Shown here piece by piece: positions 24,804 to 58,171 of a stretch of 64,000 nt of DNA. Origin of the DNA: Acidilobus saccharovorans 345-15 (GTDB lineage: Archaea > Thermoproteota > Thermoprotei_A > Sulfolobales > Acidilobaceae). The stretch is taken from assembly GCF_000144915.1 (NCBI RefSeq), contig NC_014374.1:620001-684000 (forward strand), given 5' to 3'. The translations under genes were made by a program, and so were the position numbers. The notes under the pieces are model-generated. The model worked only from the letters and a program-made list of their open reading frames with translations, did not search any database and had not been told where the DNA came from. Position 1 is the stretch's first letter. Each line of letters starts with the position of its first letter.

Positions 24804-25973
24804 TTGAGCTCAGCCGGCCCGATCTCAGTCATAGTCACCGCCTACAACAGGAGACAGTACCTTCCCTACGCCCTGCGAAGCCTTGAGGCGCAGACGCTCC
24901 CAAGGGACAGGTTCGAGGTAATAGTCGTCAAGAACTTTGAGGACAAAGAGAGCGACGAGATAATTCGCAGGAACGGCTGGAAGGAGGTCTACAGCGACGA
25001 GCAGTGGCAGGGCAGGTTCCTCCTGGCGGGCCTCGAGGAGGCGAAGGGGGACATAATAACCTTCCTGGAGGACGACGACATGTACAGGGAGGTCAGGCTC
25101 GAGAAGGTCTACAGGGGGCTTGGGTCTCACGCCATGTTCTACAACCTGCAGCAGCCCATAGACGCAAATGGCAGGGAAATAGGCGTGAGGCTCAGGCCCA
25201 GGGAGCCTCCCAGGGAGCTTGAGGTCAGCGACGCCAGAGAGGTTGTCCTGTATAATCTTGACTTCAACGCCAGCTCCATGGCCGTCCAGAGGCGCGTGGC
25301 CGAGAGGGCAAGGCTTGACCTGGTGAGGAAGTCAGTAGACACCGCACTGGCTGCGGCCGCCCTTGAGGCGGGCAGCATAAGGGTTGTGCCTGAGAGGCTG
25401 ACGCTTTACAGGGTTCACTCAGAGAACACATCGGCCACCAGGGGGCTCACGGCCGAGGCGCTGGCAAGGAAGTACATGGAGTACTACAGGGACTACATGG
25501 CGTTAAGGGAGGCAACCACGTCTAAGGTCTCCAGGGAGCTCCTTGACTTCAGGGCCACGTACTTTGGAAGCATACTCTGCCTTGGAAGGGGGATTGAGGG
25601 CGTGGAGGTGAAGGTGAGGCCCCTGAAGGCCGTCTGGCTCCGCCTGAGGGGCTGGCCGGTGAACAGGGGGGCCGTGCTGGGCTCCATATTGTGCCTCGTG
25701 CCTGCGGACCTCGTCAGGGCCCTGCGACTTCGGCGATTTTTATTGCCGGCAGGCGAGGAGCCCGGGGGGTCGGCAGTGAAGGCTGCAAAGGTCCTCTTTG
25801 TCGCCCCCTCACCCCGACGACGAGTGCATCAACGCCGGTGGGCTGCTCTCAATGCTAGTGTCCCTGGGCCTAGCCTGGGACAACCCATCAAGGATAGAGG
25901 AGGGCTGCAGGGTCGACCCTGGGTACCTGGACCACTATGTAGGCAGCGCGGCCTCCCTGGAGCTCAACGATGA
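24804..25973 (+). CDS. GT2 glycosyltransferase, run into deacetylase remnant
   Basis: A GT-A fold glycosyltransferase: ISVIVTAYNRRQYLPYALRS, EIIRRNGWKEV, GLEEAKGDIITFLEDDDMY (the DDD metal site), then a variable acceptor half ending around VPADLVRALRLRR. The longest frame starts at GTG 24768; a TTG at 24804 just after gaaggag (LSSAGPISVIV) is a better start. The frame runs without a stop into the start of a PIG-L deacetylase (VKAAKVLFVAP from 25776), then off-frame to 25973, so roughly the last 65 residues are not native. A TATA-like tttttatt at 25737-25744 suggests the original GT2 ended before it. The N-terminal DNA is nearly identical to three genes 27-32 kb away. Confidence 0.82.
   Translation: MSSAGPISVIVTAYNRRQYLPYALRSLEAQTLPRDRFEVIVVKNFEDKESDEIIRRNGWKEVYSDEQWQGRFLLAGLEEAKGDIITFLEDDDMYREVRLEKVYRGLGSHAMFYNLQQPIDANGREIGVRLRPREPPRELEVSDAREVVLYNLDFNASSMAVQRRVAERARLDLVRKSVDTALAAAALEAGSIRVVPERLTLYRVHSENTSATRGLTAEALARKYMEYYRDYMALREATTSKVSRELLDFRATYFGSILCLGRGIEGVEVKVRPLKAVWLRLRGWPVNRGAVLGSILCLVPADLVRALRLRRFLLPAGEEPGGSAVKAAKVLFVAPSPRRRVHQRRWAALNASVPGPSLGQPIKDRGGLQGRPWVPGPLCRQRGLPGAQR
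24822..24983 (+). repeat. GT2 N-terminal DNA block, copy 1
   Basis: Encodes SVIVTAYNRRQYLPYALRS through NGWK. It matches copies at 52335, 53563 and 57020, with some silent and a few coding differences. A second matching block (25027-25110) encodes GLEEAKGDIITFLEDDDMY and is almost identical to 57228-57310. Confidence 0.85.
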
Positions 25974-26119
25974 GAAGTACGTCAAGGCGTGGATAATGCT
26001 CAGGACGCCCCGGCCGACGACAACATGGCCGTTGTTGGCGAGCTTGCTGGGCCCGAGGAGGAGCTCATAGCCTCCCTTCTGCCGGAGTTCAGCAGGGTAA
26101 AGCTTGAGCCTGTCACGTG
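25776..26119 (+). pseudogene. PIG-L (LmbE-type) deacetylase remnant
   Basis: GTG at 25776 opens KAAKVLFVAP; one frame over, HPDDECINAGGLLSMLVSLGL follows, the zinc/active-site motif of PIG-L deacetylases (HPDDE). One extra C in the run near 25807 separates the frames. After about 25875 the similarity stops. The rest (CRVDPGYLDHYVGSAASLELNDEKYVKAW; then, in another frame, DNAQDAPADDNMAVVGELAGPEEELIASLLPEFSRVKLEPVT and a stop) is not recognisable. PIG-L enzymes remove acetyl groups from N-acetylated sugars, which fits a glycan locus. The gene is broken and truncated. Confidence 0.78.
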
Positions 26120-26122
26120 ACC

Positions 26123-28102
26123 TCAGACCTCAACTACGTCGCCCTCGCTTACCTTGACCTCCCTGAGGGCGCCGTCATAGTATACCAGCGTCCCGGGCGC
26201 CCTGGCCCTCACCCTGTTTCCCTCCACAGTAACGCCGGCGGGCGGCACCAGGAGCTCAGCTATGCCTATCACTGCGACGCCGTCCACCGCTGGGGAGAGT
26301 GTCAGCAGCTCCGCCTCGAGCTCCCCGAGCTCCAGGTTAACGCTCCCGGAGCCGCCGATGACCCCAGCCTCGCCGCTGACGGACTTGTAGTAGGCCAGCC
26401 TCTCGGCGGTCGGCGGCCTCGGCAGGTAAGACGGCCTGAGGGCCTCCCTGACCCTTGAGCCCCTCCTGGTCACGTTGATGGCCCCGACCACGGGGACCCC
26501 CGAGGCGGCGGAGGCCACCTTCAGCAGGACGTCCTCGTTGTATGGGTCCCTGAGCAGCACGTCCCTGGTCACGAGGCCCGGCTCGTCAGCTACAGCCAAG
26601 GTGCCGTCGGGCAGCGTCAGCCTCCTCAGCAGGTCCACGTTAGTCCTGTCCGGGAACCTGTCTGTTATGTACACCGGCCCGCCGCTCACCGCAGCGGCCA
26701 CGGCGTAGGCCAGGGCGCCCTGGTCGTAGGACATGAACATGTCGTAGTCAGGGTAAAGTATGGGCGACAGGAAGGTGCCGGCGTAGGCGCTGAACATTAT
26801 GTGCAGCTTGGCCCCGGCCCTCCAGAAAGGTATGTAGTCCACCGAGGCCCTGGCGGTCGCCGCCGCTGAGAAGTTAGAGTAGGCCTCAGGCACCAGGGCC
26901 ATGCACATCAGCAGCTCGAGCCCCTTCCTTGAAGCCACGGACTGAAGGGCCTCCTCGACGCCCCCAGCAGCCTCGGCTGAGGGGACGTCGACGTAGCCGT
27001 CGTGGAGCCAGACCTGGTTGTCAACCTTGACGAAGCTGACCCCCTGCGAGGCCATCCAGCCCAGGTAGTCCTCGTAGAACCTGTCGGCCGAGTCGGGCCT
27101 CACGAAGTGGCCGTCCCTGACCTTTGCCTTGGGGTAGCGGCCCGCCAGGCCCTCGGACAGGCTCCCCCAGTAGCCGTTTATCGTCGTCCACAGGCCCATC
27201 CTGAGCCCCATGGACCTGAGCTCCTCGGACAGGCCCCTCAGCCCTCCGGGGAACTTTGAGCCGTCGGCTGAGAACTCCCTCAGCGACTTCCCCTCAAGGG
27301 ACTCCCAGCCGTCGTCAACCAGAGCCCACCCGAGCCTCACGCCCCTGGCTATCAGGGAGCTGACGGTGGCCTTCACGTCAGCCTCGGTAACGTTGCCGAG
27401 GAACGCGTTCCATGAGCACCAGCCGAGCCTCCTTGAGAACGATGGCCTGGGCTTCTGGGACCTCAGCCTGACCTTGGCGCGCCCCGAGGCCCTGGCCCAC
27501 GCCTGGGCTATGGCGTCGTATGGGTCGCCCGAGAGCGCATATGCAAGGACGTGGCCTGAGGCCGAGGCGGCCGGGGAGCCGAGGTAAACTGAGAGCCTGG
27601 GCCCTGGGCCCAGGTAGCCGGTGAGCCTGCCAGACGATATGGCCACCGCGGCCAGCCACTCGTCCCCCGTGAAGGCTATCAGGCCGGCCGTCAGGGGAGG
27701 TATTGAGCCCTCGTCCCTGAGCCATATGGGGTAAAGCCATGACGTTGGCCTCCCTCCCCTGAACTCCCTGGGAGGGTACTCGACGTCGTCAGGGGGCCTC
27801 TCAACGGAGGGCGTGGCCCCAGTCCCGAGCAGGTTGTAGTACCTGAAGCCAACTGCATAGGCTGAGTCAGGGGCGGGGTCGTTAGTCAGGGCCAGGCCTC
27901 CCGAGACCCTCAGCGAGAGGCTAAGGCTGAGGGGCCACGAGCGGTCCACCTGCCCGAGGGATGTGAAGCTGACGAACAGTGAGCCCCCGTCGTCAGTCAC
28001 TTCCACCTCGGCCGAGGGGCACCTGAACCTGTTGCCGGCCCCCTCGCAGGCCTCCTCGCCGCTGGGCCCCCTGACGGCGAGCCCCCTGAGCTCTAAGGTC
28101 AT
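26123..28102 (-). CDS. GH36-family alpha-galactosidase / raffinose-synthase-like hydrolase
   Basis: A protein of about 659 aa with the (beta/alpha)8 landmarks of GH36/Sip1: LGWCSWNAFLGNVTEADVKA, GWALVDDGWESLEG, GLRMGLWTTINGYWG, and GVSFVKVDNQVWLHDGYVD, whose Asp is the expected nucleophile. An N-terminal beta-sandwich (about 1-220) precedes the barrel. Sulfolobus has a GH36 alpha-galactosidase of similar length. It likely releases galactose from oligosaccharides; no signal peptide is seen, so it should be cytoplasmic. The ATG at 28102 (MTLELRGLAVRG) is preferred over 28126 because a minus-strand TATA box lies 34 bp upstream of it. No sugar transporter is adjacent. Confidence 0.88.
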   Translation of the reverse strand: MTLELRGLAVRGPSGEEACEGAGNRFRCPSAEVEVTDDGGSLFVSFTSLGQVDRSWPLSLSLSLRVSGGLALTNDPAPDSAYAVGFRYYNLLGTGATPSVERPPDDVEYPPREFRGGRPTSWLYPIWLRDEGSIPPLTAGLIAFTGDEWLAAVAISSGRLTGYLGPGPRLSVYLGSPAASASGHVLAYALSGDPYDAIAQAWARASGRAKVRLRSQKPRPSFSRRLGWCSWNAFLGNVTEADVKATVSSLIARGVRLGWALVDDGWESLEGKSLREFSADGSKFPGGLRGLSEELRSMGLRMGLWTTINGYWGSLSEGLAGRYPKAKVRDGHFVRPDSADRFYEDYLGWMASQGVSFVKVDNQVWLHDGYVDVPSAEAAGGVEEALQSVASRKGLELLMCMALVPEAYSNFSAAATARASVDYIPFWRAGAKLHIMFSAYAGTFLSPILYPDYDMFMSYDQGALAYAVAAAVSGGPVYITDRFPDRTNVDLLRRLTLPDGTLAVADEPGLVTRDVLLRDPYNEDVLLKVASAASGVPVVGAINVTRRGSRVREALRPSYLPRPPTAERLAYYKSVSGEAGVIGGSGSVNLELGELEAELLTLSPAVDGVAVIGIAELLVPPAGVTVEGNRVRARAPGTLVYYDGALREVKVSEGDVVEV

Positions 28103-28131
28103 GAGTCCACCTGAGTGAAGGCGCAAGTGTG

Positions 28132-28140
28132 CATAAATTA
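28132..28140 (-). promoter_or_regulatory. TATA box of the GH36 gene
   Basis: On the minus strand taatttatg lies about 34 bp upstream of the ATG at 28102, which supports that start. It also overlaps the longer start at 28126, making that one unlikely. Confidence 0.5.
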
Positions 28141-28500: not shown

Positions 28501-30927
28501 TTGAGTCGCGCGCACCTAATAATAGTCCTGTTGGCGTTGATCCTCCTGGCGCCTCAGCAGCACGCTGCAGGCCTCCACGTTAGCAGGCCATCGGTGCCGA
28601 GGCTTCCCGTGATGCCTTTTCCTGAGGCCGCCACTGAGAATGCCGTTGGGATAAACGACAACGGCACAGCGCTCGTTAACGGCAGCCAGGTTAACTACTA
28701 TTACACAACCCGCTCCCTGCTGGGTGTCTTCAACTTCTACGGCGGCTCCTTCTACTCTGGTCCGCCGGTGAACGCTAACTGGTCCTCAGTGCAGCTCAAC
28801 GCCAACCTCAACGTGACCCCTGACGTGGTGCTCTGGGCCCAGGACGTGATACATATCTACGCGGCGGGCAACGGCACATACTACGTGGAGATAGAGGACA
28901 ACCTGTGGAACGCGACTAACAACCTGTGGAACGCGACTAACAACCTGTGGAACGCGACTAACAACCTGTGGAACGCGACTAACAACCTGTGGAACGCGAC
29001 TAACAACCTGTGGAACGCGACTAACCCTGCAGTGCTCAGCGCCAGCGGCAACGGGAACATAAGCAGCTATCATGGTGAGCAGTACTACGCCTATACCTAC
29101 CCAGTTCAGTTTGAGAGCAGCGAGCCGTTCCACGTCTACGTCATGATGAACGTCAGCGTCAACGCCGCCATGGAGCCGGTCATATACATGTACTTCAGGT
29201 TCGTCAACTCGACCTACGACAGCGGCTGGGTGCTCTACGACACCATAACAGCTAACGAGACCGCGTTCAACGACAACCCGACCTTCCTCGCGGGCAGCGT
29301 GCCCGGGGTGGCCAGCAACGGCTACCCATACGTCATACAGTTCGTCACGGCCGGCTGCGGGGAAGGGTCAACGCTCTACGCCTACTCCTGGGACGCCAGC
29401 ATGATGCTTTACTACAGGTACGACGGCAGGTTCTACGCCGTGCCGGGGGCCTTCTCCCTGGAGCCGTACAACTTCTCCGGCGGCGTGACGGCCGAGAACG
29501 TCAGCGCGGTGCAGGGCATAGCGGAGTACTACTATGACGGCCTCGTGTACCAGCTATCCGGCAGCAGCTACCAGGAGGCCCTGTGGCAGGCCTCGGCAAG
29601 CAGCTACTCGCCGGCCCCGAACGAGGTCTCCGTTAACCTGACGCCGGCCGGCGCCCTGTGGGTCGTGAGCGTCATGGGCGTGAACGTGAGCTTCTCAAGT
29701 ACTGTGGCGGTGACGTCGCCCCAGGCCCTGATTCAGGTGCCCTCCGGCGAGTACATCGTTACCGCAACCCTCTACGCCGGCAGCAGCCCGGTGTACTCCT
29801 TCAGCTCCGAAGTGGCCGTGGCGGGCATGCAGCAGGTGATAGCGCTTAACGTGAGCTCGCAGACGCCGTTCATATACAACGGGCAGATGTTCATGGCGGG
29901 CAACTACACTTTCTACTCGCAGCAGCCCTTCGTGGCGAACTTGACCTTCGTAGCCTACATGCCGTCGGCAGGCATCAGGGTGCTCCCCAGCGAGGTCCTG
30001 GTCAACGGCACCCCTGCGCACGTCACCTCGCTCCTGCTGGCGGTCAACGGCAACACCACTGTGGTAGAGGGGGCCGTGCTGCAGTACTACGTCAACCTGA
30101 GCCAGCCTGTCCCTGCTAACGTTAACGGGATCAACGCCACGCTGACCAGCGGCTGGTACAACGCCTCGACAAGGATAATCATATACAGGTACTTCTACAT
30201 CGGCGAGGCTGAGAGGCTCTACGTCAGCCCGGAGATGATAGTCATCAACCTGAGCTCCCCGCTCACGCTGCCCCTGAGGCCCGTGCTGCAGTACTACGTG
30301 CACATATCGCTTCCCAACGGGACCATCAGCGGCTGGTACGCAAACGGCACCGTGATAAGGCCGCCCGAGGTGATATACGTCAACGGCTCCGCCAGGTACG
30401 TGCTCCAGGTCGGCGGCCCCCTCGTCGTTGACTCCCCGGTGAACGAGACCCCGGCCTACCAGCTGCAGGTGCTCGTCAGCTACGCCCTGCCCAACGGGAC
30501 TGCGTTCGTAGGCTGGCTACCGCTGGGCTACACGCTCAGGTTCCCAACAACAATAAACGTGAGCAGCGGCGTGTCCTACGAGCTGGTGTCTCCTGAGGAG
30601 GTGGCCGTCACCTCGCCTGGGGCCATAGTGGTCGAGTACTCACCCAGGTTCCTGGTCACAGTGACGTACGCCAACGGCACCACCAGGAGCTTCTGGGCGC
30701 CGCAGGGCTACACGGTTAAGCTTGAGGCGCCCGCCCCGCCGCTCCACGCCGTGAGGTGGGTCGGCACCCTGGACCTCCCCAACGGCGCCTCGGTTAGCGT
30801 GGGCGAGCCCATGGCTGAGAGGGAGGCTGTAACCATCAACGCGGCCGAGGTCGGGGGGCTGGGGGCCGCGGCCGTCGCAGTAGCGGTCGTCGCTGTGGCG
30901 CTCCTGCTGCTGAGGAGGAGGCCTTAG
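28501..30927 (+). CDS. Thermopsin-family (A5) acid protease with tandem NLWNATN repeats
   Basis: An 808-aa exported protein. A signal peptide (about 1-24) is followed by a thermopsin-like domain (about 45-390): NYYYTTRSLLGVFNFYGGSF, VVLWAQDVIHIYAAGNGTY, IEDNLWN (the family's DNxWN motif), and a segment equivalent to the family's glycine-rich DAELV region (IQFVTAGCGEGSTLYAYSWD). Thermopsins are extracellular acid peptidases of thermoacidophilic archaea. Residues about 134-175 are six exact copies of NLWNATN. The C-terminal half has beta-sandwich repeats ending in a single membrane helix and RRR tail (LLLLRRRP), so the enzyme is cell-bound. Sequons are abundant. Confidence 0.85.
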   Translation: MSRAHLIIVLLALILLAPQQHAAGLHVSRPSVPRLPVMPFPEAATENAVGINDNGTALVNGSQVNYYYTTRSLLGVFNFYGGSFYSGPPVNANWSSVQLNANLNVTPDVVLWAQDVIHIYAAGNGTYYVEIEDNLWNATNNLWNATNNLWNATNNLWNATNNLWNATNNLWNATNPAVLSASGNGNISSYHGEQYYAYTYPVQFESSEPFHVYVMMNVSVNAAMEPVIYMYFRFVNSTYDSGWVLYDTITANETAFNDNPTFLAGSVPGVASNGYPYVIQFVTAGCGEGSTLYAYSWDASMMLYYRYDGRFYAVPGAFSLEPYNFSGGVTAENVSAVQGIAEYYYDGLVYQLSGSSYQEALWQASASSYSPAPNEVSVNLTPAGALWVVSVMGVNVSFSSTVAVTSPQALIQVPSGEYIVTATLYAGSSPVYSFSSEVAVAGMQQVIALNVSSQTPFIYNGQMFMAGNYTFYSQQPFVANLTFVAYMPSAGIRVLPSEVLVNGTPAHVTSLLLAVNGNTTVVEGAVLQYYVNLSQPVPANVNGINATLTSGWYNASTRIIIYRYFYIGEAERLYVSPEMIVINLSSPLTLPLRPVLQYYVHISLPNGTISGWYANGTVIRPPEVIYVNGSARYVLQVGGPLVVDSPVNETPAYQLQVLVSYALPNGTAFVGWLPLGYTLRFPTTINVSSGVSYELVSPEEVAVTSPGAIVVEYSPRFLVTVTYANGTTRSFWAPQGYTVKLEAPAPPLHAVRWVGTLDLPNGASVSVGEPMAEREAVTINAAEVGGLGAAAVAVAVVAVALLLLRRRP
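28900..29025 (+). repeat. Six perfect 21-bp in-frame tandem repeats
   Basis: Six identical 21-bp units, each encoding NLWNATN with an NAT glycosylation sequon, sit at the conserved thermopsin DNxWN position. Identity at DNA level means the array is recent and likely unstable in copy number. Confidence 0.97.
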
Positions 30928-43137: not shown

Positions 43138-43324
43138 CGCTAAACACCCAAAATTTTAGCTCGTATGGCCTCGTGCGGTGCTGAATAAAAAGCGTTAACT
43201 CGTTTTCACGTAATTGATTTGCAATTACGGCAAGCTGCTATCAGGCGCCTCGATTAATTCAGAGGCGGCTGGTAGTCCGTGAAGCCAGCTCTCTCAAAGA
43301 TACGCGGGCTCTCACGAATATATC

Positions 43325-43424
43325 CTAGGGGCCTACTTTGACACCACAATAATATGGACGCTCACGAGCTTCGCCCTGACGTGGCCGGCCCAGGGCTTCA
43401 ACAGGTTCGTGACGGGCGAGTACT
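43325..43424 (+). pseudogene. Flippase gene fragment (about 100 bp)
   Basis: This encodes LGAYFDTTIIWTLTSFALTWPAQGFNRFVTGEY then a stop, almost the same DNA as 47253-47350 in the intact flippase. It is a detached duplicate of an internal segment. Sequence outside the block is not related. Confidence 0.85.
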
Positions 43425-47130: not shown

Positions 47131-48666
47131 ATGTCGCTGAGGGCCAGGGTCTTCAGGGGGGCCGCCAAGCTGCTGTCGGCGAGCACCTTTGTCACACTTC
47201 TTCAGTTCGCCTTCTACATTACCATTGTCAGGGTGCTCGGACTTCAGGGCCTGGGCGCTTACTTTGACACGACGATTTTATGGACGCTCACGGGCTTCGC
47301 CCTGACGTGGCCGGCCCAGGGCTTCAACAGGTTCGTGACGGGCGAGTACCAGGCAGGCAGGGTTGAGAGGGCGAGGCACCTATACAGGCTCGGCGTGATG
47401 ATAGGCCTCCTCGGCGGGCTCTCGGCGGCCACAGCCTTCATTGTGCTAGCTCCTCAGGCCGCGGCCCTTATGTTCAGGAGCGCCCACTACGCAGGCCTCG
47501 TCAGGGTACTTGCAGTTGACATGGTCCTCAGCAGCTACAACTCCTACGCCGGCATAGGCCTCGGGGCCACCATGAGGTTCGGCAAGATATCACTGGTGCA
47601 GGTCCTCTGGGCGCTTGCAAGGTACCTGACGGGCATAGCGCTGCTCATTGCAGGCTACGGCCCGCTAGGGCTCATAGCTGGCTGGGTGGCCGGCGACCTG
47701 GTCAACGCTGTCTTTAACACCTACTGGTCCAGGGACTTGCTCCTAGGCCCCACGTCGGCCCACCCGTTAAGACCCGTGATAAAGTTCGCTGCGCCCCTCG
47801 CCCTTAGCGGCGCTGTCGTCTCAGTGCTGCAGAGCTTCGACAGAATCTTCGTGCTGGCCAAGCTGGGCCTAGCAGAGCTGGGGTCATACTCAACAATAAT
47901 GCTGGCGTCAGGCGTGCCACAGATGCTCCCGGGAGCCATAGCGGGGGCCCTTGGGCCTGCCATGATAGGCCTAGAGGAGAGGGGGGAGCTGAGGCCTGAG
48001 GCCGTGGAGAAAGCAGTTAGGTACATCACGACGCTCTCAATACCGCCCCTGCTCCTCATAGCTGCTGTTGGAAGGCCCCTGGTGCTCCTCTTCCTGGGGC
48101 CTAGCTTCGTCCACGACTGGGAGGCCTTCACCATACTGACAGTGGGGCACAGCCTCATGACATACGACATACCGATAAGCATGGTCCTAGCAGCTAAAAG
48201 GGACTCAAAGGCATTAGCAATGCAGTCAGTGGTAACCGCCGCTACGATAGCCCTGCTCGCGCCGCCGCTCATAGACCTCTGGTTCGCTGCGGGGGCGGCG
48301 ATAGCCTACGTGGTCGCCAGGCTCGTGGGCTTCCTGGCAGTGGCGATGCCCAGGGTTAAGCGCTACGGCCTGCTGAGGGTAGACTTGGGCGATTATGCAA
48401 GGCTCGCGCTTGCCTCAATAATTGTGTTCGCCGGGACCCTGTCCCTTGGGCTCGCCACTGGGCTGAGGCTGGTCCTCCTGCCGGCCTACATAGCCTTTGG
48501 CCTCGCCCTCACGTGGGCCAGCGTCAGGGCCCTTCACGTATTGGACGCCGACGACTACGGGGCCCTGATGGAGGCCCTGCCAGCCGAGCTCCACGGGGTG
48601 ATGTCGCGGCTGTGGAGGGGGCTCGGGCTCCCCCTGCCCAACGGATACTTGGACGACGCTAGATGA
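47131..48666 (+). CDS. Polysaccharide/lipid-linked oligosaccharide flippase (MOP superfamily, Wzx-like)
   Basis: A 511-aa polytopic protein with about 12-14 membrane segments. The N-terminus SLRARVFRGAAKLLSASTFVTLLQFAFYITIVRVLGLQGLGAYF and GLGATMRFGKISLVQVLWALARYL are typical of RfbX/Wzx and archaeal oligosaccharide flippases. It would flip lipid-linked sugar repeats across the membrane for the glycan made by the genes downstream. It directly precedes the rml operon. A 100-bp piece of it is duplicated at 43325-43424. Confidence 0.88.
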   Translation: MSLRARVFRGAAKLLSASTFVTLLQFAFYITIVRVLGLQGLGAYFDTTILWTLTGFALTWPAQGFNRFVTGEYQAGRVERARHLYRLGVMIGLLGGLSAATAFIVLAPQAAALMFRSAHYAGLVRVLAVDMVLSSYNSYAGIGLGATMRFGKISLVQVLWALARYLTGIALLIAGYGPLGLIAGWVAGDLVNAVFNTYWSRDLLLGPTSAHPLRPVIKFAAPLALSGAVVSVLQSFDRIFVLAKLGLAELGSYSTIMLASGVPQMLPGAIAGALGPAMIGLEERGELRPEAVEKAVRYITTLSIPPLLLIAAVGRPLVLLFLGPSFVHDWEAFTILTVGHSLMTYDIPISMVLAAKRDSKALAMQSVVTAATIALLAPPLIDLWFAAGAAIAYVVARLVGFLAVAMPRVKRYGLLRVDLGDYARLALASIIVFAGTLSLGLATGLRLVLLPAYIAFGLALTWASVRALHVLDADDYGALMEALPAELHGVMSRLWRGLGLPLPNGYLDDAR

Positions 48667-48788: not shown

Positions 48789-49346
48789 TTGCCCTTTGAG
48801 TTCGAGAGGCTCGACATCCCAGACGTGGTCCTCGTTAAGCCAAAGGTCTTCAGGGACCAGAGGGGCTACTTCATGGAGACCTTTGTTGCGAAGGCTTTTG
48901 AGCAGGCCGGGGTCAAGTTCAACGTTGTCCAGGAGAACCAGTCATACTCAAGGAGGGGCGTGATCAGGGGGCTCCACTACCAGAGGGGGCAGTGGGCCCA
49001 GGCCAAGATAGTGAGGGCCGTCAAGGGGGAGATATACGACGTGGCCGTCGACATAAGGCCCTGGTCGCCCACCTTTGGAAAGCACGTGGCCGTGAGGCTG
49101 TCCGAGGACAACGGCTACGCCCTCTACATACCGAGGGGCTTTGCCCACGGCTTCCAGGTCCTCAGCGAATATGCAATAGTGGTTTACCTTGTTGATAACG
49201 ACTATGCCCCGCAGGCCGAGGGAGGCATAAGGTGGGACGACTCAGACATAGCTATCAGCTGGCCCATAAGCGGCCCGGTGCTCTCTGAGAAGGACGCCAG
49301 GTGGCCAACGCTGAGGGAGGCCCTGCAGGGGGGCTTCATACCGTGA
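48789..49346 (+). CDS. rmlC: dTDP-4-dehydrorhamnose 3,5-epimerase
   Basis: A 185-aa cupin. Motifs: FRDQRGYFMETF, NQSYSRRGVIRGLHYQRG (catalytic His), GEIYDVAVDIRPWSPTFGKH, IPRGFAHGFQVLSEYAIVVYLVDNDYAP (Tyr) and GIRWDDSDIAI. It epimerises C3 and C5 of dTDP-4-keto-6-deoxyglucose, the third step to dTDP-L-rhamnose. It is the first gene of the operon; the start is a TTG. Confidence 0.95.
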   Translation: MPFEFERLDIPDVVLVKPKVFRDQRGYFMETFVAKAFEQAGVKFNVVQENQSYSRRGVIRGLHYQRGQWAQAKIVRAVKGEIYDVAVDIRPWSPTFGKHVAVRLSEDNGYALYIPRGFAHGFQVLSEYAIVVYLVDNDYAPQAEGGIRWDDSDIAISWPISGPVLSEKDARWPTLREALQGGFIP

Positions 49347-49355
49347 GGTGATAAC

Positions 49356-50207
49356 ATGGGGGAGAGGTACCTGGTGCTGGGAACCGGCCAGCTGGGCTCT
49401 GAGCTGGTGGGGCTGCTGAGGGGCGAGAGGGAGAAGGGGAAGGACGTAGCTTACACCTACCACGGCTCTGACCCCTTCGGCTTCGGCCAACAGCTTGACG
49501 TGACCAACTTCGAGCTGCTCGAGGACCTCATAATAAAGGTCTCCCCGGACGTCATAATAAACGCCGTGGCCATGACAAACGTTGACGCGTGCGAGAGCGA
49601 CAGGGCGAGGGCGCTTAAGGTTAACGCTGAGGCGGTAAAGCACGTGGCCAGGGCGGTGAGGGTGGTCGGCTCCTATATGATCCACGTGAGCACGGACTAC
49701 GTCTTTGACGGGACGAAGGGACTGTACAGGGAGGACGAGGAGCCGAACCCGATAAACTACTACGGGCTCACGAAGCTCCTAGGCGAGGCGTACGCCCTCT
49801 CCTACGACGACTCCCTAGTGGTCAGGACCTCGGGGGTCTTCAGGGACAAGGGCTTCCCCTCGTTCGTGGTCAGGCAGCTCAGGCAGGGCAGGGCAGTGAA
49901 GGCCTACGCGGGCTTCTACAGCCCAATATCGGCCAGGAAGCTGGCCGAGGCGATACTCGCGCTTGCAGAGCTCAGGAAGACCGGGATCATAAACGTGGCG
50001 GGCGAGAGGGTCTCGAGGTACCAGCTTGCCGTTGAGGTCGCCAAGGCCTTCGGCCTCGACCCCTCCCCGGTAACGGAGGTCAAGGAGGTGGAGGGCTGGG
50101 TCGCCAAGAGGCCCTACGACTCCTCCCTGGACATTTCAAGGGCCAGGGCGCTGCTTAACTTCGACTTCTACAGCCTGAGGGAGAACCTGAGGCACGCGGT
50201 GGTGTGA
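49356..50207 (+). CDS. rmlD: dTDP-4-dehydrorhamnose reductase
   Basis: A 283-aa short-chain reductase: NAD(P) loop GTGQLGSELVGLL, NAVAMTNVDACES, HVSTDYVFDGTKGLYREDE, and active-site YYGLTKLLGE (Tyr-x3-Lys). It reduces the 4-keto group to give dTDP-L-rhamnose. The start ATG is preceded by a strong gaggtgat, 9 bp after the rmlC stop, so the gene has its own ribosome-binding site inside the operon. Confidence 0.94.
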   Translation: MGERYLVLGTGQLGSELVGLLRGEREKGKDVAYTYHGSDPFGFGQQLDVTNFELLEDLIIKVSPDVIINAVAMTNVDACESDRARALKVNAEAVKHVARAVRVVGSYMIHVSTDYVFDGTKGLYREDEEPNPINYYGLTKLLGEAYALSYDDSLVVRTSGVFRDKGFPSFVVRQLRQGRAVKAYAGFYSPISARKLAEAILALAELRKTGIINVAGERVSRYQLAVEVAKAFGLDPSPVTEVKEVEGWVAKRPYDSSLDISRARALLNFDFYSLRENLRHAVV

Positions 50208-50208
50208 G

Positions 50209-51252
50209 ATGGAGGCCGTGGTGCTTCACGGCGGCCAGGGGACCAGGCTCAGGCCGCTGACCCACACGGGCCCGAAGCAGCTCATAAAGGTGGCCGGCAA
50301 GCCCGTCTCCCAGTGGGTCCTCGAGCAGGTGAGGGACGCCGGCATAAAGGACGTTATAGTTGTGCTTGGGGACAACAACCCCCAGAGGGTTGTTGAATAT
50401 TACGGCGACGGCTCCTGGCTCGGCCTCAGGATAAGGTACCTCTACCAAGGGAGGGCGAGGGGGCTGGCGGACGCCGTCTACAGGGTTAAGAACCTGGTCG
50501 GCGACAGGTTCATAGTCTACCTGGGGGACAACGTGGTGCCCTACGACCTTAAGAGGCTTCTCAGCTTCAGGGGGTCCGCCTCAATACTGCTGGCCAGGGT
50601 GCCCAACCCGCAGAGGTTCGGCGTCGCTGTGCTCAAGGATAACAGGGTCGTCAGGGTGGTCGAGAAGCCGAGGGAGCCCATAAGTGACCTTGCCCTGGTG
50701 GGAGTCTACGGCTTCACAAGGGAGGTCTTCGATGTCATAGAGGGGTTAAAGCCCAGCTGGAGGGGCGAGCTTGAGATAACGGACGCGATACAGGGCCTCA
50801 TAGACAGGGGCAGGGAGGTGACCTATGACGTCGTTGACGGCTGGTGGAAGGACACGGGGACGCCCGAGGACATACTGGAGGCAAACATGGTGCTGCTGGA
50901 CAGGCACGCCACGAGGTCAATAAGGGGGCTCGTCTCCAACTCCAGGATCGACGGCAGGGTCATAGTTGAGGATGGCGCCCAGGTGGTTAACAGCAGGGTA
51001 GTGGGGCCCGCCTTCATAGGCAAAGGCTCGGTCGTCAGGGACTCCTACCTGGGGCCCTACACCATGGTCGGGGACGGCTGCACCGTAGAGGACTCCGAGG
51101 TTGAGAACTCCGTCATACTTGACGGGGCAACCGTGGCTGGCATCTCGCTGAGGGACTCGATAATAGGCCAGGGGTCCAGGGTGGCCAGGGGAAACGGGAA
51201 GCCGAAGGCCACGAGGTTAATAGTCGGCGAGAGCTCCGTGCTCGAGGTGTGA
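50209..51252 (+). CDS. rmlA: Glucose-1-phosphate thymidylyltransferase (long archaeal form)
   Basis: A 347-aa nucleotidyltransferase. N-terminal GGQGTRLRPLTHTGPKQLIKVAGKP is the sugar-nucleotide signature, followed by VYLGDNVV and VEKPREPISDLALVGVY. The C-terminal third is a left-handed beta-helix (repeats such as VIVEDGAQVVNSRVVGPAFI). This is the long form known from Sulfolobales and other crenarchaea, larger than bacterial RmlA (about 290 aa). It makes dTDP-glucose. It starts 1 bp after rmlD stops. Confidence 0.94.
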   Translation: MEAVVLHGGQGTRLRPLTHTGPKQLIKVAGKPVSQWVLEQVRDAGIKDVIVVLGDNNPQRVVEYYGDGSWLGLRIRYLYQGRARGLADAVYRVKNLVGDRFIVYLGDNVVPYDLKRLLSFRGSASILLARVPNPQRFGVAVLKDNRVVRVVEKPREPISDLALVGVYGFTREVFDVIEGLKPSWRGELEITDAIQGLIDRGREVTYDVVDGWWKDTGTPEDILEANMVLLDRHATRSIRGLVSNSRIDGRVIVEDGAQVVNSRVVGPAFIGKGSVVRDSYLGPYTMVGDGCTVEDSEVENSVILDGATVAGISLRDSIIGQGSRVARGNGKPKATRLIVGESSVLEV

Positions 51253-51255
51253 GAG

Positions 51256-52233
51256 TTGACGGAGACCGTCAGGGTTGCGGTGCTCGGAGGGGCCGGCTTC
51301 ATAGGCTCTGCTGTCGTGAGGGAGCTCAACAGGAGGGGGATGAGGCCCCTAGTGTTTGACCTGCTCACCTACGCCGGAAGGCCTGAGAACCTCCAGGGAA
51401 CTGACCACGAGTTCGTCAGGGGCGACATAAGGGGGCCGGAGCTCCACGAGGCCCTCTCCAGGTTCAGGCCCGAGGTTATAATTAACCTGGCCGCGGAGAC
51501 CCACGTGGACCGCTCGATATACTCCCCCCAGGACTTCGTGACGACCAACGTAATTGGTGCTGTAAACGTGCTTGAGGCCGCCAGGAGGCTTGGGGTCAGG
51601 CTGCTCCACGTGTCAACCGACGAGGTCTTCGGGGACGCCTCAGTATATGGCTGCGCTGATGAAAGCTCGCCACTCAGGCCGTCGTCGCCTTACAGCGCCT
51701 CAAAGGCCTCCGCGGAGCACTTTGTGTTAGCCTACGTCAGGACGTACGGTCTTGAGGCGCTGGTAGCAAGGCCTTCAAATAACTACGGGCCGAGGCAGCA
51801 CCCTGAGAAGCTCATACCCAAGGCCATAATCAGGACGCTCCTGGGCCTTGAGGTGCCTGTCTACGGCTCAGGGCTGCAGAGGAGGGACTGGATGTACGTT
51901 GAGGACACGGCGAGGCTGCTGGTGGACCTCGCCTTAAAGGGGGAAGCCGGGAGGGGCTACAACCTGCCCGGGGGACACGTGGCCACCAACCTGGAGATAC
52001 TGGGGCTCATAGGGAGGGCCCTGGGAAGGGAGGTAAAAATTAAGCACGTGGAGGACAGGCCCGGCCATGACGTTGAGTACTGCATGAGGCCAAGTTTCAG
52101 CTACTGGACCACGCCGCTGGAGGACGGCATTGGGAGAACCGTTAGGTGGTACATTGAAAACCAGGAGTGGTGGAGGCCGCTGTTAGGTAATAAGTTCTTC
52201 GTAAACGAGGTTCCATGGAGATCTGTTGGTTAA
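51256..52233 (+). CDS. rmlB: dTDP-glucose 4,6-dehydratase
   Basis: A 325-aa extended SDR: NAD loop VLGGAGFIGSAVVREL, NLAAETHVDRSI, LHVSTDEVFGDAS, and YSASKASAEHFVLAY (Tyr-x3-Lys), then RPSNNYGPRQHPEKLIPKAI. It converts dTDP-glucose to the 4-keto-6-deoxy intermediate. It starts at a TTG 3 bp after rmlA and is the last rml gene; the order C-D-A-B differs from the common bacterial B-D-A-C. Confidence 0.95.
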   Translation: MTETVRVAVLGGAGFIGSAVVRELNRRGMRPLVFDLLTYAGRPENLQGTDHEFVRGDIRGPELHEALSRFRPEVIINLAAETHVDRSIYSPQDFVTTNVIGAVNVLEAARRLGVRLLHVSTDEVFGDASVYGCADESSPLRPSSPYSASKASAEHFVLAYVRTYGLEALVARPSNNYGPRQHPEKLIPKAIIRTLLGLEVPVYGSGLQRRDWMYVEDTARLLVDLALKGEAGRGYNLPGGHVATNLEILGLIGRALGREVKIKHVEDRPGHDVEYCMRPSFSYWTTPLEDGIGRTVRWYIENQEWWRPLLGNKFFVNEVPWRSVG

Positions 52234-52275
52234 GGCTTTTCAGTCTCTCAGCGCTTAGCAGCTTATTACCTGTAG

Positions 52276-52284
52276 TTTATATAT
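52276..52284 (+). promoter_or_regulatory. TATA box of GT2 gene inside rmlB tail
   Basis: tttatatat? region (tttatatatt around 52277-52286) is just past the rmlB stop and about 35-40 bp before a GTG at 52317. It supports that GTG rather than an upstream start at 52215 within rmlB. Confidence 0.5.
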
Positions 52285-52316
52285 TGGCTGTTGTCGCCAC
52301 TCAGCGAGGGCCTGTC

Positions 52317-53459
52317 GTGAGCTCAAAAAGCCTTGTCTCAGTCATCGTCACCGCCTACAACAGGAAACAGTACCTTCCCCACGCGCTGCGAAGCCTCGAG
52401 ATGCAGACGCTCCCAAGGGACAGGTTCGAGGTAATTGTGGTCAAGAACTTCGAGGACAAAGAGAGCGACGAGATAATAAGGAGGAACGGGTGGAAGGAAG
52501 TCTACAGCGACGAGGAGTGGCAGGGGCCCTTCGTGCTTGCAGGCCTCGAGGAGGCAAAGGGCGACATAATAACCTTCCTGGATGACGACGACATGTACAG
52601 GGAGGACAGGCTCTCATACATTTATAGGGCCTTTGCTTCGTCACGTGACGTGGTTTACTTTCACAACGAGCAAGTAATAATTAACGAGGAGGGCAAAGTG
52701 ATCTCTGACAAGAGCCCGCTTCCTGCAGTCAAAGCCCAGAGGGATTTCGTCCTTAGCTCTTCCCTGCTCTCAAAAGTTGAGGACAGGCTGGGCATCTGTT
52801 ACTATCAGCTGCTCCCTCTCCTCAGGGAGTTCGGTCCATACTTTGACTTCAATAGCAGCTCTATTGCAGTTAGGAGGGAGGTGATCGATAAGGAAAAGCT
52901 GAAGCCTTTGGAGGTGGGAATTGACAATATGCTTTTTGCCTTAGCTCTTAGACTCGGGGACGAGCGCTCGCTCCTCTACCTTACAGGTGTGCCGCTCACA
53001 TATTATAGGGTCCACGGCAACAGCTTTTCCGCTAAGGCCTATGGCAAGATTAAGGCCTCCCATTTCAAGGACCTGAGGCTAGTTGAAAAGGTGATGTCGC
53101 TTCTTAAGTCAAACAGGGCGGCCAGCCGCGTGGCCGGAGAGCTCCCAGAAGGGTGCAAGTGTAACAATTATGAACTCTTTGCAGCCTACCTAAGGTTAGA
53201 GGCCCTGTACCTTCCAACGCGGCTTGCCAGGGAGCTCTCACAAAGCTTAGTGTTGCGGCCCTCCGAGATTCTCAGGTTTCTTCGCTGCGACCTGGTCAAC
53301 TCGGCGCTGTCACAGGAAAGAAGCGCCACCTCGTTAGTTATGCACGAAGCGTGGTCACTGATGTATATGACACTCTCCTACGTGTTGGCCTTCATAGACA
53401 GAGTGGCCCCTCGCAGCTCAGAGGTCCCCTTGCGCCTCAGGGGGCGCTTGAGGCGGTGA
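52317..53459 (+). CDS. GT2 glycosyltransferase (mosaic family, copy 2)
   Basis: An approximately 380-aa GT-A transferase: VSVIVTAYNRKQYLPHALRS, NGWKEVYSDEEWQG, GLEEAKGDIITFLDDDDMYRE (metal site), then FHNEQVIINEEGKVISD and LLPLLREFGPYFDFNSSSIAVRRE. The C-terminal half resembles the copy at 56996 (about half the residues). The frame is open from 52215, but the TATA box and family alignment favour the GTG at 52317. DNA 52371-52496 is identical to the broken copy at 53599-53724. It acts in glycan assembly; donor and acceptor are unknown. Confidence 0.9.
   Translation: MSSKSLVSVIVTAYNRKQYLPHALRSLEMQTLPRDRFEVIVVKNFEDKESDEIIRRNGWKEVYSDEEWQGPFVLAGLEEAKGDIITFLDDDDMYREDRLSYIYRAFASSRDVVYFHNEQVIINEEGKVISDKSPLPAVKAQRDFVLSSSLLSKVEDRLGICYYQLLPLLREFGPYFDFNSSSIAVRREVIDKEKLKPLEVGIDNMLFALALRLGDERSLLYLTGVPLTYYRVHGNSFSAKAYGKIKASHFKDLRLVEKVMSLLKSNRAASRVAGELPEGCKCNNYELFAAYLRLEALYLPTRLARELSQSLVLRPSEILRFLRCDLVNSALSQERSATSLVMHEAWSLMYMTLSYVLAFIDRVAPRSSEVPLRLRGRLRR
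52335..52496 (+). repeat. GT2 N-terminal DNA block, copy 2
   Basis: From 52371 to the end (126 bp) it is identical to copy 3. Upstream codons differ (AYNRKQ versus AHDRRR). Confidence 0.95.
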
Positions 53460-53519: not shown

Positions 53520-53562
53520 AGGCGTTCCTAGAAGCAGTAGTTCCTGGGAAGGCCTTTTGCAG

Positions 53563-53724
53563 GTCTCAGTCATCGTCACTGCCCACGACCGTAGGAGGTA
53601 CCTTCCCCACGCGCTGCGAAGCCTCGAGATGCAGACGCTCCCAAGGGACAGGTTCGAGGTAATTGTGGTCAAGAACTTCGAGGACAAAGAGAGCGACGAG
53701 ATAATAAGGAGGAACGGGTGGAAG
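53563..53724 (+). repeat. GT2 N-terminal DNA block, copy 3
   Basis: 149 bp (53569-53717) identical to copy 4 and 126 bp identical to copy 2. Confidence 0.95.
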
Positions 53725-53751: not shown

Positions 53752-53783
53752 GGTAAGTTAATACTGTGGTAAGTTCATACTGT
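53752..53783 (+). repeat. 16-bp tandem duplication with one mismatch
   Basis: Units ggtaagttaatactgt and ggtaagttcatactgt are adjacent; removing one restores the GT2 frame (GKFILSDLEEARG). Confidence 0.85.
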
Positions 53784-54705
53784 CAGACCTGGAGGAGGCA
53801 AGGGGTGACATAATTTAGTTCCTTGAAGATGGTGACATGTATGAGCCTCAGAAGCTCTCAGAGGTCTATAAGGTCTTTGAGGAAAGGGCGGACATAACGT
53901 ATTTCCACGACACCAGGAAGTATATGATACTAAATAAATTAATTTTTGATGGAATTAACAAACAGGCTGCATATGAGGACACGTGGCTTGAGGGTGCCAT
54001 TGGATACCTTGAGTCAATAACTCCCACGGATCAGGACGTCTTAGTTGACCCCAAGGATAGCGGTGCAGCAGGCTATTTACTGAAATATCATGGGATGGTC
54101 GCCACGGTCAGCCTTATGGCTGTGCGTAGGAGCTGCCTGGATAGGTGGGTCCACATCCTCAAGGACATAGAAATTTCGGCTGAAAGGGCCATTCCCGCCA
54201 TAGCTGCGGAGTGCGGCAAGCTTTACCATATGTCGAGAAGGCTCACCGTCTACAGGTTCCATATCAATAACTCATCCATAGGGCTTGACGCCCCTGGACG
54301 GCTGAGGGCGTTAAGGAACCTCTCAAGGGCCGTCGAGGACCACGAAAGGTTACTTGGAACAATTTCGCCCAGGAACCCCATGAGAACGGTCATAGCTAAC
54401 GATATGCTTTCGGCCAAGCTGACCCTCTTCCTCGCGGACAAGGAGCTGAGGAAGGAGCTTAACGTGAGGTCAGGCCCTAGGGAGAAGCTAGATGTCCTAA
54501 GGTCGTGGTGCAACTTAAATAATATGCCTCTAAAGGACTGCATGATATTTGCCACATCGTTAATTCTTCCCGATGGTTTGAGGAGAGCCCTAGGAAGGCT
54601 GTTGACATACTATATAGAAAGAAAGGGTGCAGCCACTCTACAGGCGAGCAGGGCTATGGGCATAGGCCTGCGGGGGCCCTCAACATAATTGCGAGGAGGT
54701 CGTTC

Positions 54706-55620
54706 GTGGTCCCATGTGATGGCCAGAAGCTGAACTTAAGGCCTAGCGAGCTCGTCGCCCTGGGGGACCTCGTAAGGAGAGGCTTAGTCGAGTTCAGTGG
54801 CTGCGAGGTCATATTTAATGTCAACGGAGCTAAAGTGCACGTGCCCATCTCTGAAGTCATGGCCTCTAACGGAGGGCTTGCCGCCATTCGTAAAGCGATT
54901 CTTCACGGGTGGCTCTTCAGGGACGATAGATGGAGTAAGGACGGGGTCTCTTTCGTTCACATGCACGAGGAGATCCTTGGCACCTTTGATGACGAGGAGT
55001 ACTCCTTCCTTGAAGTTAACAACAGGCCCGTGATAGACGTTGGCGCCTACATAGGTGACACGGCGCTGTACTTTGTGAAGAAGGGCGCGAGCAAGGTGAT
55101 AGCAGTGGAGCCTAGCCCAGGCGCCTTTAAAGAGCTAACTGACGATATAATAAAAATTAACGGAGCGCAGGCGAAAGTCGTGGCGGTAAACGCTGCTATA
55201 GCCGAGGCAGGCCCTGTACCTATCAGTAAGGACGCCGCTGACGTGAAGGGAGCCCGAGTCCGGTGGGTAGGGAGGTCAAAGGTTGAAAGAAAGGACGACA
55301 CCCTAACTTCTGTTAAGGCCATGGGGCTCTACGAGGTAGTCAAATTATACGGCGTCGATAACGCTGCCCTGAAGGCCGACTGCGAGGGCTGCGAGTATCA
55401 CATAGCGATGCGCGAGCCGGAGGCCCTCAGTGGCTTTGAAGAGATAGGGCTGGAATATCACGCCTTTAACTCTGGTATACCTGTCTCCGAGCTCATCAGG
55501 GCCCTCTCAAACGCTGGGTTCGTTTGCGAGAGGGCAAACGACTGGGTCTACCTGAAGAACGCGGGCTCGTCCTGGAACAGCGAGATGATCGGGATGCTGC
55601 ACTGCGTCAGGAGGCGCTAG
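54706..55620 (+). CDS. FkbM-family methyltransferase (intact copy)
   Basis: A 304-aa protein. The N-terminal 100 residues are a family-specific extension (LNLRPSELVALGDLVRRGLVEFSG). The SAM-binding core is PVIDVGAYIGDTALYFVKKGASKVIAVEPSP, NGAQAKVVAVNAAI, and LKADCEGCEYHIA. FkbM enzymes O-methylate hydroxyls on sugars or polyketides. A good gaggaggt lies 8 bp before the GTG start. This is the only unbroken FkbM in the window. The stop shares CTAG with the convergent GT4. Confidence 0.9.
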   Translation: MVPCDGQKLNLRPSELVALGDLVRRGLVEFSGCEVIFNVNGAKVHVPISEVMASNGGLAAIRKAILHGWLFRDDRWSKDGVSFVHMHEEILGTFDDEEYSFLEVNNRPVIDVGAYIGDTALYFVKKGASKVIAVEPSPGAFKELTDDIIKINGAQAKVVAVNAAIAEAGPVPISKDAADVKGARVRWVGRSKVERKDDTLTSVKAMGLYEVVKLYGVDNAALKADCEGCEYHIAMREPEALSGFEEIGLEYHAFNSGIPVSELIRALSNAGFVCERANDWVYLKNAGSSWNSEMIGMLHCVRRR

Positions 55621-56777
55621 TCGCCCTGCCTCTGGAGCTCCTCCTCAATTGCCCTCCTGGTCCTATCGACGACGAGCCTAAAGTCCCACCTCCTCGCGGT
55701 CTCAAGGCCGCCCTGGGCCAGTGACTGCCTCAGCTCCCTGTTGTCTAGGGCCTGCACCAGGAGGTCGGCAATCTCGCCGGGATCAAAGGTCTTGGCCACC
55801 AGGGCGTTGTAGCCGTTCACCATGTAGTCCATGTTCCCTTTAGCGTTGGTACTTACAACGGCGGTCCCGCAGGCCATGGCCTCAAGGGGTGGAAGCCCAA
55901 AGCCCTCGGCCCTAGAGGTGAAGAGGAAGACGTCAGAGGAGCTGTAGATCCTTGCGAGCTCCTCATCACTTACGCCGCTCTGGTAGAACACATAAGGGAA
56001 CCTTGGCCTGAACTTAAGCCTAAACTCGTCCTCGGGGAACTCTGATATCACAATAGCCTTAAACGTAGTCCTCATAGCAGCTAAGTTCAGCGACTCAACC
56101 GCAATGTCAGAACCTTTAAACCTCGGTCTGCGCAGAATTACGCTCACCAACGGCTCGTCGCCTCTCGTGACCTTCCTAGGGTAAAACGTGTCAAGGTCCA
56201 CTCCATTGCCTATATAATATATTTTCGCTGAAGGGTTTTCCGACTTTATGATTTCAGTTATATAGGACGAAATTGAGAGGAAGCCGAGGGGCGCCCTTAA
56301 GACGGCCTTAAATAGCCTGAGCCCAACATTACCCATGGTCTCAGCTACTAGCTCAGGGAAGTCCTGGAGGAGGATCATGGGCTTAGCGTCGCTCTGCAAG
56401 GCTATGAATGCCGTCGGAAACCACGTAGCAATGGCGACGTCAAAGTCCTTTAGTAACCCGAGCAGCGCGCGCTGCTCGTCAAGCCTGAAGCCCGTTAGCC
56501 TCTGAATCACAAAGTCTAATGTAGGTAGACCGGCCTTGCCCTTGCGGCCCGAGACCCTTTTGCCGAAGTTCAACAGCGAACCCAATATGGGTGGCATTTT
56601 TGGGCTTACTATAGGAACCTTGTACTGGGGCCACGGGTTACCTGGCTCTGGGGAGACGACCTTAGAATCGAAATGTTCTCCTAAAGCGTTAGCCAACGCG
56701 AGTGCCACACGTATGCCGCCGGCTATAAAGAGGCCAGGGACAATGAAGGCAATTTTACGCCTCTGTTCCACACTCAA
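55617..56777 (-). CDS. GT4-family glycosyltransferase
   Basis: A 386-aa GT-B enzyme: N-terminal GLFIAGGIRVALALANALGE, middle YIGNGVDLDTFYP, and the nucleotide-sugar site SRAEGFGLPPLEAMACGTAVVSTN (E-x7-E). C-terminal DNRELRQSLAQGGLETARRWDF is standard. It probably adds one sugar to a lipid-linked glycan. The start at 56777 is an ATG/TTG-type start before VEQRRKIAFIVPG. Confidence 0.9.
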   Translation of the reverse strand: MSVEQRRKIAFIVPGLFIAGGIRVALALANALGEHFDSKVVSPEPGNPWPQYKVPIVSPKMPPILGSLLNFGKRVSGRKGKAGLPTLDFVIQRLTGFRLDEQRALLGLLKDFDVAIATWFPTAFIALQSDAKPMILLQDFPELVAETMGNVGLRLFKAVLRAPLGFLSISSYITEIIKSENPSAKIYYIGNGVDLDTFYPRKVTRGDEPLVSVILRRPRFKGSDIAVESLNLAAMRTTFKAIVISEFPEDEFRLKFRPRFPYVFYQSGVSDEELARIYSSSDVFLFTSRAEGFGLPPLEAMACGTAVVSTNAKGNMDYMVNGYNALVAKTFDPGEIADLLVQALDNRELRQSLAQGGLETARRWDFRLVVDRTRRAIEEELQRQGD

Positions 56778-56995
56778 CGCGCCTGAAGCCTAGGAACTAT
56801 GGGGCCTGCGTGGTAATATAAGTACATTTTATGGTTTTGACGCGCTTCTTAATGGCAGGAATTACTTTGTTTAGTAATACAGGTATTGCAGGCACTGACG
56901 TCTCTACAACCATTATACTAACTTTACAGCCGCCCTTTTAGGATACGCTTTAATACATCCATCTAGTTTCAAAATTAATAAGGGCTACAGGTTAC

Positions 56996-58171
56996 ATGAA
57001 TTCAACGGATAATTTGCAGGTTTCCGTCATCGTCACTGCCCACGACCGTAGGAGGTACCTTCCCCACGCGCTGCGAAGCCTCGAGATGCAGACGCTCCCA
57101 AGGGACAGGTTCGAGGTAATTGTGGTCAAGAACTTCGAGGACAAAGAGAGCGACGAGATAATAAGGAGGAACGGCTGGAAAAACGTTGTAACAGACGTCG
57201 TGCCCCTCGGGGGCAAGATAGCCATAGGCCTCGAGGAGGCGAAGGGTGACATAATAACCTTCCTGGAGGACGACGACATGTACAGGGAGGTCAGGCTCGA
57301 GAAGGTCTACAAGGTTTTTACCTTGCATAGGGACGTCATCTACTTCCACAACGAGCAGGTTCTTATAGACGAAAGGGGCGATGTCATCTCGGATGAGAGC
57401 CTCTTCCCTGCAGTAAGGGATCGAGGCGACTATGTTATCAGGTCCAGCCTTTTGAGCAAGGTGGAAAGGAAAATGGGAGTCTGTTATTATCAGCTGCTCC
57501 CCCTGCTTAAGGCTTTCGGTCCAGGCCTTGGCCTTAACAACAGCTCAATAGCTGTTAGAAGGGGGGTAGTAAGCGCAGACAAATTGAAGGACATTGAAAT
57601 CACTGTAGACATAGAGCTCTTCGCCTCGGCCTTAAAGTATAAGGGCGAGGCCTCGACCCTTTACTTTACTGGCAAACCCCTTACGTATTTTAGGGTTCAT
57701 GAAGATAATGCGAGCAGCATAGCTTTCAATACAGCTTTCGGTAAGGCAGCCCTTCTTAATCAGCTAAACAACGAAGCCTACCTGGTTAACAGAGTTAAGT
57801 GGTTGTTAAAGTTAGCCAGGTGGCATGGCTTTGTGAGTAAGGAGCTTCCGCAGGAATGTGTTTGTAACGCCTATGGCTTCTCGTCAACTATTGCTAGGTT
57901 AGAGGCCATATATTTGCCAATGCCGCTGGCCAGAACGTTATCTCAAAGCTTGACGCCCCCAGCCAGTGAGCTCATAAAGATCGCTAAGTGCGCCGTGACG
58001 AACTTTGCTTTGTCGTCGAGCAAGGAAAGCGTAAAAATATTAGGTACCCTGAGATTTCTTGCATTCCTGTTAATGCCTTATGTTTTGGTACTCGTAGACA
58101 GAGCCTTCCCGCACAATTCTGGCGTCCCCTTGTATGTTAGAAGAGCGCTGAGCTTCTTAAGGTCAAGGTAG
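56996..58171 (+). CDS. GT2 glycosyltransferase (mosaic family, copy 4)
   Basis: A 391-aa GT-A enzyme: VSVIVTAHDRRRYLPHALRS, NGWKNVVTDVVPLGGKIAIG, LEEAKGDIITFLEDDDMYREVRLEKVY (metal site), then IYFHNEQVLIDERGDVISD and NNSSIAVRRGVVS, with a C-terminal hydrophobic patch (FLAFLLMPYVLVLVDRAF). It starts at ATG 56996 or TTG 57013. The N-terminal block matches copy 3, and the metal-site block matches copy 1 32 kb away, while the segment between them is unique. It lies next to two further GT2 remnants. Confidence 0.9.
   Translation: MNSTDNLQVSVIVTAHDRRRYLPHALRSLEMQTLPRDRFEVIVVKNFEDKESDEIIRRNGWKNVVTDVVPLGGKIAIGLEEAKGDIITFLEDDDMYREVRLEKVYKVFTLHRDVIYFHNEQVLIDERGDVISDESLFPAVRDRGDYVIRSSLLSKVERKMGVCYYQLLPLLKAFGPGLGLNNSSIAVRRGVVSADKLKDIEITVDIELFASALKYKGEASTLYFTGKPLTYFRVHEDNASSIAFNTAFGKAALLNQLNNEAYLVNRVKWLLKLARWHGFVSKELPQECVCNAYGFSSTIARLEAIYLPMPLARTLSQSLTPPASELIKIAKCAVTNFALSSSKESVKILGTLRFLAFLLMPYVLVLVDRAFPHNSGVPLYVRRALSFLRSR
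57020..57181 (+). repeat. GT2 N-terminal DNA block, copy 4
   Basis: 149 bp identical to copy 3. A second block at 57228-57310 is almost identical to 25027-25110. Confidence 0.95.

Follow-up and report, generated by a model that had tools for sequence, protein, structure and literature searches.

Shared front halves and diverged back halves among dispersed GT2 glycosyltransferase genes of Acidilobus saccharovorans

Several glycosyltransferase genes of the thermoacidophilic archaeon Acidilobus saccharovorans 345-15 open with almost the same DNA and close with very different sequence, which raises the question of whether the catalytic front has been exchanged repeatedly between loci and, if so, by a dedicated system or as a by-product of ordinary recombination. 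The stretch of DNA analysed here, referred to as the window, is 64,000 nucleotides long and corresponds to positions 620001-684000 of a complete genome consisting of one contig of 1,496,453 bases; coordinates are those of the window unless the genome is named.

Six copies of one GT-A front

The front block of this GT2 (GT-A fold) family is present in six copies, four in the window (g1-g4) and two at most about 9 kb past its end (g5 and g6), and about 97 front codons are common to all of them. Codons are counted from the S of the SVIVTA motif, the codon of which lies at 24825 in g1, 52338 in g2, 53566 in g3, 57023 in g4, genome ~688316-688318 in g5, and genome 692306 in g6. The four blocks of the window, placed at 24822, 52335, 53563, and 57020 in a first-pass annotation made from the sequence, are present there to within a base. 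In a Pfam profile search, all five intact copies match PF00535 above the curated cut-off (E from 1e-12 to 1e-18; 2.3e-16 for g1).

The gene g1 (ORF 24768-25973, + strand) serves to introduce the common anatomy. Its block A, delimited by sequence comparison and PF00535, begins at about the start codon, runs to codon 52 (24804-24980), and is followed by an inter-block cassette (24981-25028), which alignment and fold placement assign to the HV1 position and which is of the type EVYSDEQWQGRFLLA, common to g2 and g5. Next come block B (25029-25115), which contains the DDD metal site, and a diverged back half (25116-25973). On the same strand, g2 (ORF 52215-53459, likely start GTG at 52317) is composed of block A (52318-52493, with an exact run of 120 bp with g4 and one with g3), a cassette of type 1 (52494-52541), block B (52542-52628, with a 72-bp exact run with g5), and a back half (52629-53459) that is sister to that of g4. 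The gene g4 (ORF 56996-58171, +) has block A at 57013-57178, a cassette of the type NVVTDVVPLGGKIAI at 57179-57226, which it has in common with g6, block B at 57227-57313, and a back half at 57314-58171 with a GC content of 0.47 vs 0.56 in the front. The near-identity of g1 and g4 around the metal site that had been described earlier is borne out, as 83 of 84 bases match and 64 bp among them form an exact run. The roughly 45 bp between the blocks, on the other hand, had been thought unique to each gene and are instead distributed over types, one in g1, g2, and g5, another in g4 and g6, and a third in g3.

The third copy, previously counted as a gene, is a pseudogene. Its block A (53556-53721, +) is followed by a frame-shifting 16-bp tandem duplication (53752-53783, GGTAAGTTMATACTGT twice), a TAG at 53816-53818, and a change of the metal motif from EDDD to EDGD at 53825, and a remnant back half remains as an open frame (53819-54688, +). 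This remnant had been called unrelated to the other backs but is a diverged relative of them (25-33% identical, E ~1e-7 to 1e-9). The identity of g3 and g4 over 149 bp is an exact run (53569-53717 = 57026-57174), and that of g2 and g3 is likewise exact, its length being 127 bp rather than 126 bp. Within 160 bp, the g3 front is a chimera, g4-like in its 5' part and g2-like at its 3' end. Two decayed fragments of the same family lie at 58243-58580 (+) and 58680-59192 (-), next to g4 in a region where GC falls as low as 0.35.

The structural meaning of the front can be judged from a predicted model of g4 (pLDDT 77 overall, ~95 in the front), which has strands at residues 9-15, 39-45, 62-65, and 86-91, with the DxD after the last. 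The metal site, EDDD or DDDD, follows strand 86-91, and D92, D93, and D94 are invariant, g3 having EDGD. Foldseek matches the model to the solved structures of SpsA, TarP, TarS, and the rhamnosyltransferase RmlT (E ~1e-10 to 1e-11). Given that the front ends at about residue 106, inside helix 100-110, the shared part is on this model the nucleotide-binding half. The cassette that switches between genes occupies residues 62-77, that is, strand 3, the loop after it, and the first part of the next helix, and so coincides with HV1, one of three hypervariable regions of GT-A enzymes said to carry acceptor-specific motifs (PMC7185993). The earlier assignment of the N-terminal half to the donor side and of the rest to the acceptor side fits both the fold of the model and what is published on GT-A anatomy (PMC7185993). 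Homologues of the dTDP-rhamnose genes rmlC, rmlD, rmlA, and rmlB lie directly upstream of g2 (48789-52233, +), in a locus that also has sugar-nucleotide, flippase, and many glycosyltransferase genes; from these rml neighbours and the RmlT and SpsA fold matches, dTDP-rhamnose is possibly the donor sugar, a reasonable guess.

Recombination within the front

When the five intact genes are aligned by codon, silent sites are 67-96% identical in blocks A and B and 31-42% identical in the backs, with Fisher p values for the contrast from 6e-4 to 8e-11; the backs have 22-48% protein identity and saturated silent sites. The change is a cliff at about codon 97, which sliding-window identity also places there. 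Codon usage alone predicts a silent identity of ~0.56 for ordinary genes of the region and of 37% for the glycosyltransferase backs. Part of the silent contrast therefore reflects unbiased backs, and the main weight is accordingly placed on run permutation and PHI, on partner switching, and on tree conflict; exact runs and conflicting trees are independent of codon bias.

Permutation of exact runs inside the front gives p=1e-4 for each of g1/g4, g2/g4, g4/g6, g2/g3, and g3/g4, and the PHI test gives p=0.0005. The tracts are bounded at both ends by non-identical sequence, one end being close to the start codon and the other at codon 97, and g4 changes partner along the front, pairing with g3 and g2 in block A, with g6 in the cassette, and with g1 in block B. 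The trees of the two halves disagree. In the back tree, g2 joins g4 (support 99/98), and g6 joins the sister-genus gene G011b (94/89), whereas the front rejects g2+g4 at the amino acid level (p-AU 0.002) and g6 with the sister-genus gene at the nucleotide level (p-AU 1e-4). It is in the converted part only that paralogues are closer than orthologues, as g6 and G011b join in the back and are rejected in the front. Conversely, the back data reject g4+g6 (p-AU 3e-7), though these two have the same HV1 cassette type. The front nucleotide tree does not reject g2+g4 at the 5% level (p=0.066), as would follow from an exchange of block A between these two genes.

Base composition separates the halves as well. 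Third-position GC is homogeneous among the five fronts (77-85%, heterogeneity p=0.78) and heterogeneous among the backs (44-84%, p=4.5e-22), the GC of which ranges from 0.41 to 0.66; in g5, it falls from 79% in the front to 44% in the back (p=8.5e-10). The fronts thus come from one pool and the backs not, and the composition suggests that some of the backs may be of outside origin.

Collapse of repeats in the assembly, an objection raised at the outset, is unlikely because the genome is one closed contig, the flanks of each copy are unique, and relatives that were assembled independently contain comparable tracts, among them a 359-bp exact run in a sister species. With sliding identity, silent sites, run permutation, PHI, and AU tests in agreement, the earlier proposal of repeated gene conversion or exchange that keeps the catalytic front alike in copies with differing backs is upheld, and a second family repeats the pattern.

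A second family and the distribution in relatives

That family, h1/h2, came up within the control set, namely, the other GT2 genes of the same genome, and is unrelated to g1-g6. The ORF of h1 spans 62227-63513 (+), and its counterpart h2 lies 66 kb away at genome 615901-616809 (-). Their fronts, 140 codons at 62542-62961 (+) in h1, are 88% identical in nucleotides, and their backs (62962-63513, +, in h1) are 47% identical. In amino acids, the fronts of h1 and h2 are 92% identical to each other and each ~70% to one sister-species homologue, whereas the backs are 32% identical to each other and 35-36% to that homologue. On the sequences, this is the signature that front-only conversion would be expected to leave. 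Since h1/h2 have the same architecture as g1-g6, the pattern is not an accident of one gene. No further pair alike at the DNA level was found among the GT2 control genes of the genome outside overlapping loci.

Within the taxonomic family, the g-type GT2 subfamily is present in six of 48 genomes, which belong to two genera. In the sister species (G003), two neighbouring copies are identical over the 359 bp mentioned above (codons 62-181) and then fall to ~40%. In the sister genus (loci L049, L050, and L051), three Caldisphaera-like GT2 copies, a, e, and f, agree at ~92-96% along most of the gene; they are near-full-length duplicates, two of them frameshifted or decayed, and no cliff between front and back was found in them. 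Thus, exchange or duplication recurs among these genes, with differing boundaries. No strong second copy of the GT2 gene was found in the Thermocladium, Caldivirga, and Methanomethylicota MAG loci examined, where one locus (L022) has a weak second GT2-like match of 21-29% identity, and phage records were without a match. GT4 genes of two sister species (L053:6192-11682 and L052:3091-7134) show patchy identity of 88-100%, strongest toward the C-terminal half, which is the donor half in GT-B enzymes; as most comparisons have no significant silent contrast, homogenisation of this half is not claimed.

Probable partial-gene concerted evolution and its alternatives

The reading best suited to these observations, and a highly probable one, is that the fronts of dispersed GT2 paralogues are homogenised by ectopic, short-patch, non-reciprocal recombination, while the backs are too diverged to recombine; the g1-g6 case would then be a partial-gene form of concerted evolution. 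The N-terminal halves, which make up the Rossmann half and end shortly after the DxD (about codons 1-97), would be converted recurrently among the dispersed copies, because they are conserved enough to remain substrates of recombination and are thereby kept similar. The C-terminal halves, comprising the rest of the GT-A fold and a helical tail, would have diverged beyond recombination, with independent and partly compositionally foreign histories; once below the similarity threshold, a back would drift or be replaced. A new enzyme would therefore combine the donor-side half that all copies have in common with an HV1 cassette, of which there are two or three, and an acceptor-side half of its own, the donor sugar presumably being common to all copies and a change of acceptor the consequence. 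The enzymatic route would be the one reported for Sulfolobus, namely RadA-type recombination in which strands are replaced locally.

Other histories have to be set against this one. Illegitimate recombination might recently have placed copies of a GT2 front before acceptor domains of unrelated or foreign origin, with no exchange afterwards, a history to which the sharp junction at codon 97 and the varying composition of the backs next to uniform fronts would be congenial. It is nevertheless improbable: the backs are GT2 ends homologous to one another, their relatives from the sister genus and from other genera already have homologous fronts, g2 and g4 have sister backs yet different HV1 types, and the patchwork inside the front would require several events. 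Strong purifying selection on the front at the protein and nucleotide levels, without recombination, is scarcely credible. The front is indeed the more conserved half across genera (51-66% amino acid identity vs 20-38% in the back), and codon usage is biased, but exact runs of 149 and 127 bp start and stop inside the front, the partners differ by block, the longest run involves a pseudogene, and the trees conflict significantly; as far as the present data go, PHI and run permutation refute it.

A dedicated variation system, in which silent cassettes (g3 and the copies at 58243 and 59192) feed an expressed glycosyltransferase and vary surface glycans as pilS does pilE, is very unlikely, even though pseudogene copies adjoin intact genes, recent identity links g3 to g4 and g2, and the locus holds sugar-nucleotide, flippase, and many glycosyltransferase genes. 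Read from the DNA, there are five intact open frames at separate places and not one expression site, the partial copies have decayed at random sites, and it is the conserved half that is exchanged, the reverse of what happens in classical antigenic variation. Nor were invertible repeats found of the kind that flank segments switched by site-specific inversion or in a shufflon: a search of 44 kb for inverted repeats of 40 nt or longer gave a single pair, of 40 nt at 73%, unrelated to the GT2 genes. Doubtful, too, is a standing combinatorial system that refits acquired GT2 genes with the donor-side half and HV1 cassette of the host, continually making new donor/acceptor pairings; if true, sibling strains would carry different surface glycans, for example, in response to pressure from viruses. 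A passive account, in which the copies are still sufficiently alike for recombination in the conserved half only, accounts for the same data as active diversification and is simpler, as special machinery is unneeded.

The pattern has counterparts among known systems. In Neisseria, paralogous glycosyltransferases of a surface glycan recombine into mosaic lgt genes, in another glycosyltransferase family and in a bacterium. As in interlocus gene conversion and concerted evolution generally, paralogues are closer than sister-genus relatives, tracts are bounded, and genes are mosaic; here, however, the process is limited to one structural half, the other being saturated, in two GT2 families of one crenarchaeon. 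In Sulfolobus acidocaldarius, recombination produces short, discontinuous, non-reciprocal tracts in which parental alleles are intermingled (PMC4471258), similar patches in the same archaeal phylum, although measured there on introduced DNA and inferred here among chromosomal paralogues. The pilE/pilS system of Neisseria (PMC11130364) also involves conversion within one family with truncated copies nearby, but moves variable cassettes into one expressed gene, whereas here a constant half is spread across several intact genes. Conversion among dispersed PPE/PE paralogues likewise gives local diversity in M. tuberculosis, where it is shown with 151 long-read genomes (PMC13061034), compared with one genome per species in this study. 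No description of glycosyltransferase mosaics in crenarchaea was found in the open-access literature.

These genes are a clear example from nature of enzymes that have recombined at the boundary between donor and acceptor halves, in an archaeon with little-studied surface glycans, and they extend to natural paralogues the short-patch recombination known from the genetics of Sulfolobus. Whole-protein GT2 gene trees can mislead, as the two halves differ in history. Should the donor sugar be fixed by the shared front, all five intact enzymes would be predicted to use the same nucleotide sugar and different acceptors. Copying of front patches could, to go by the sequences, create new enzyme combinations for surface sugars.

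Two minor observations concern other repeats in the window. A 100-bp piece of a flippase-like gene (47131-48666) at 47250-47349 is duplicated, with 92% identity, at 43324-43423, just upstream of a peptidase A4 gene. In addition, a thermopsin-like gene (28501-30927) contains perfect 21-bp tandem repeats of seven residues each at 28898-29025.
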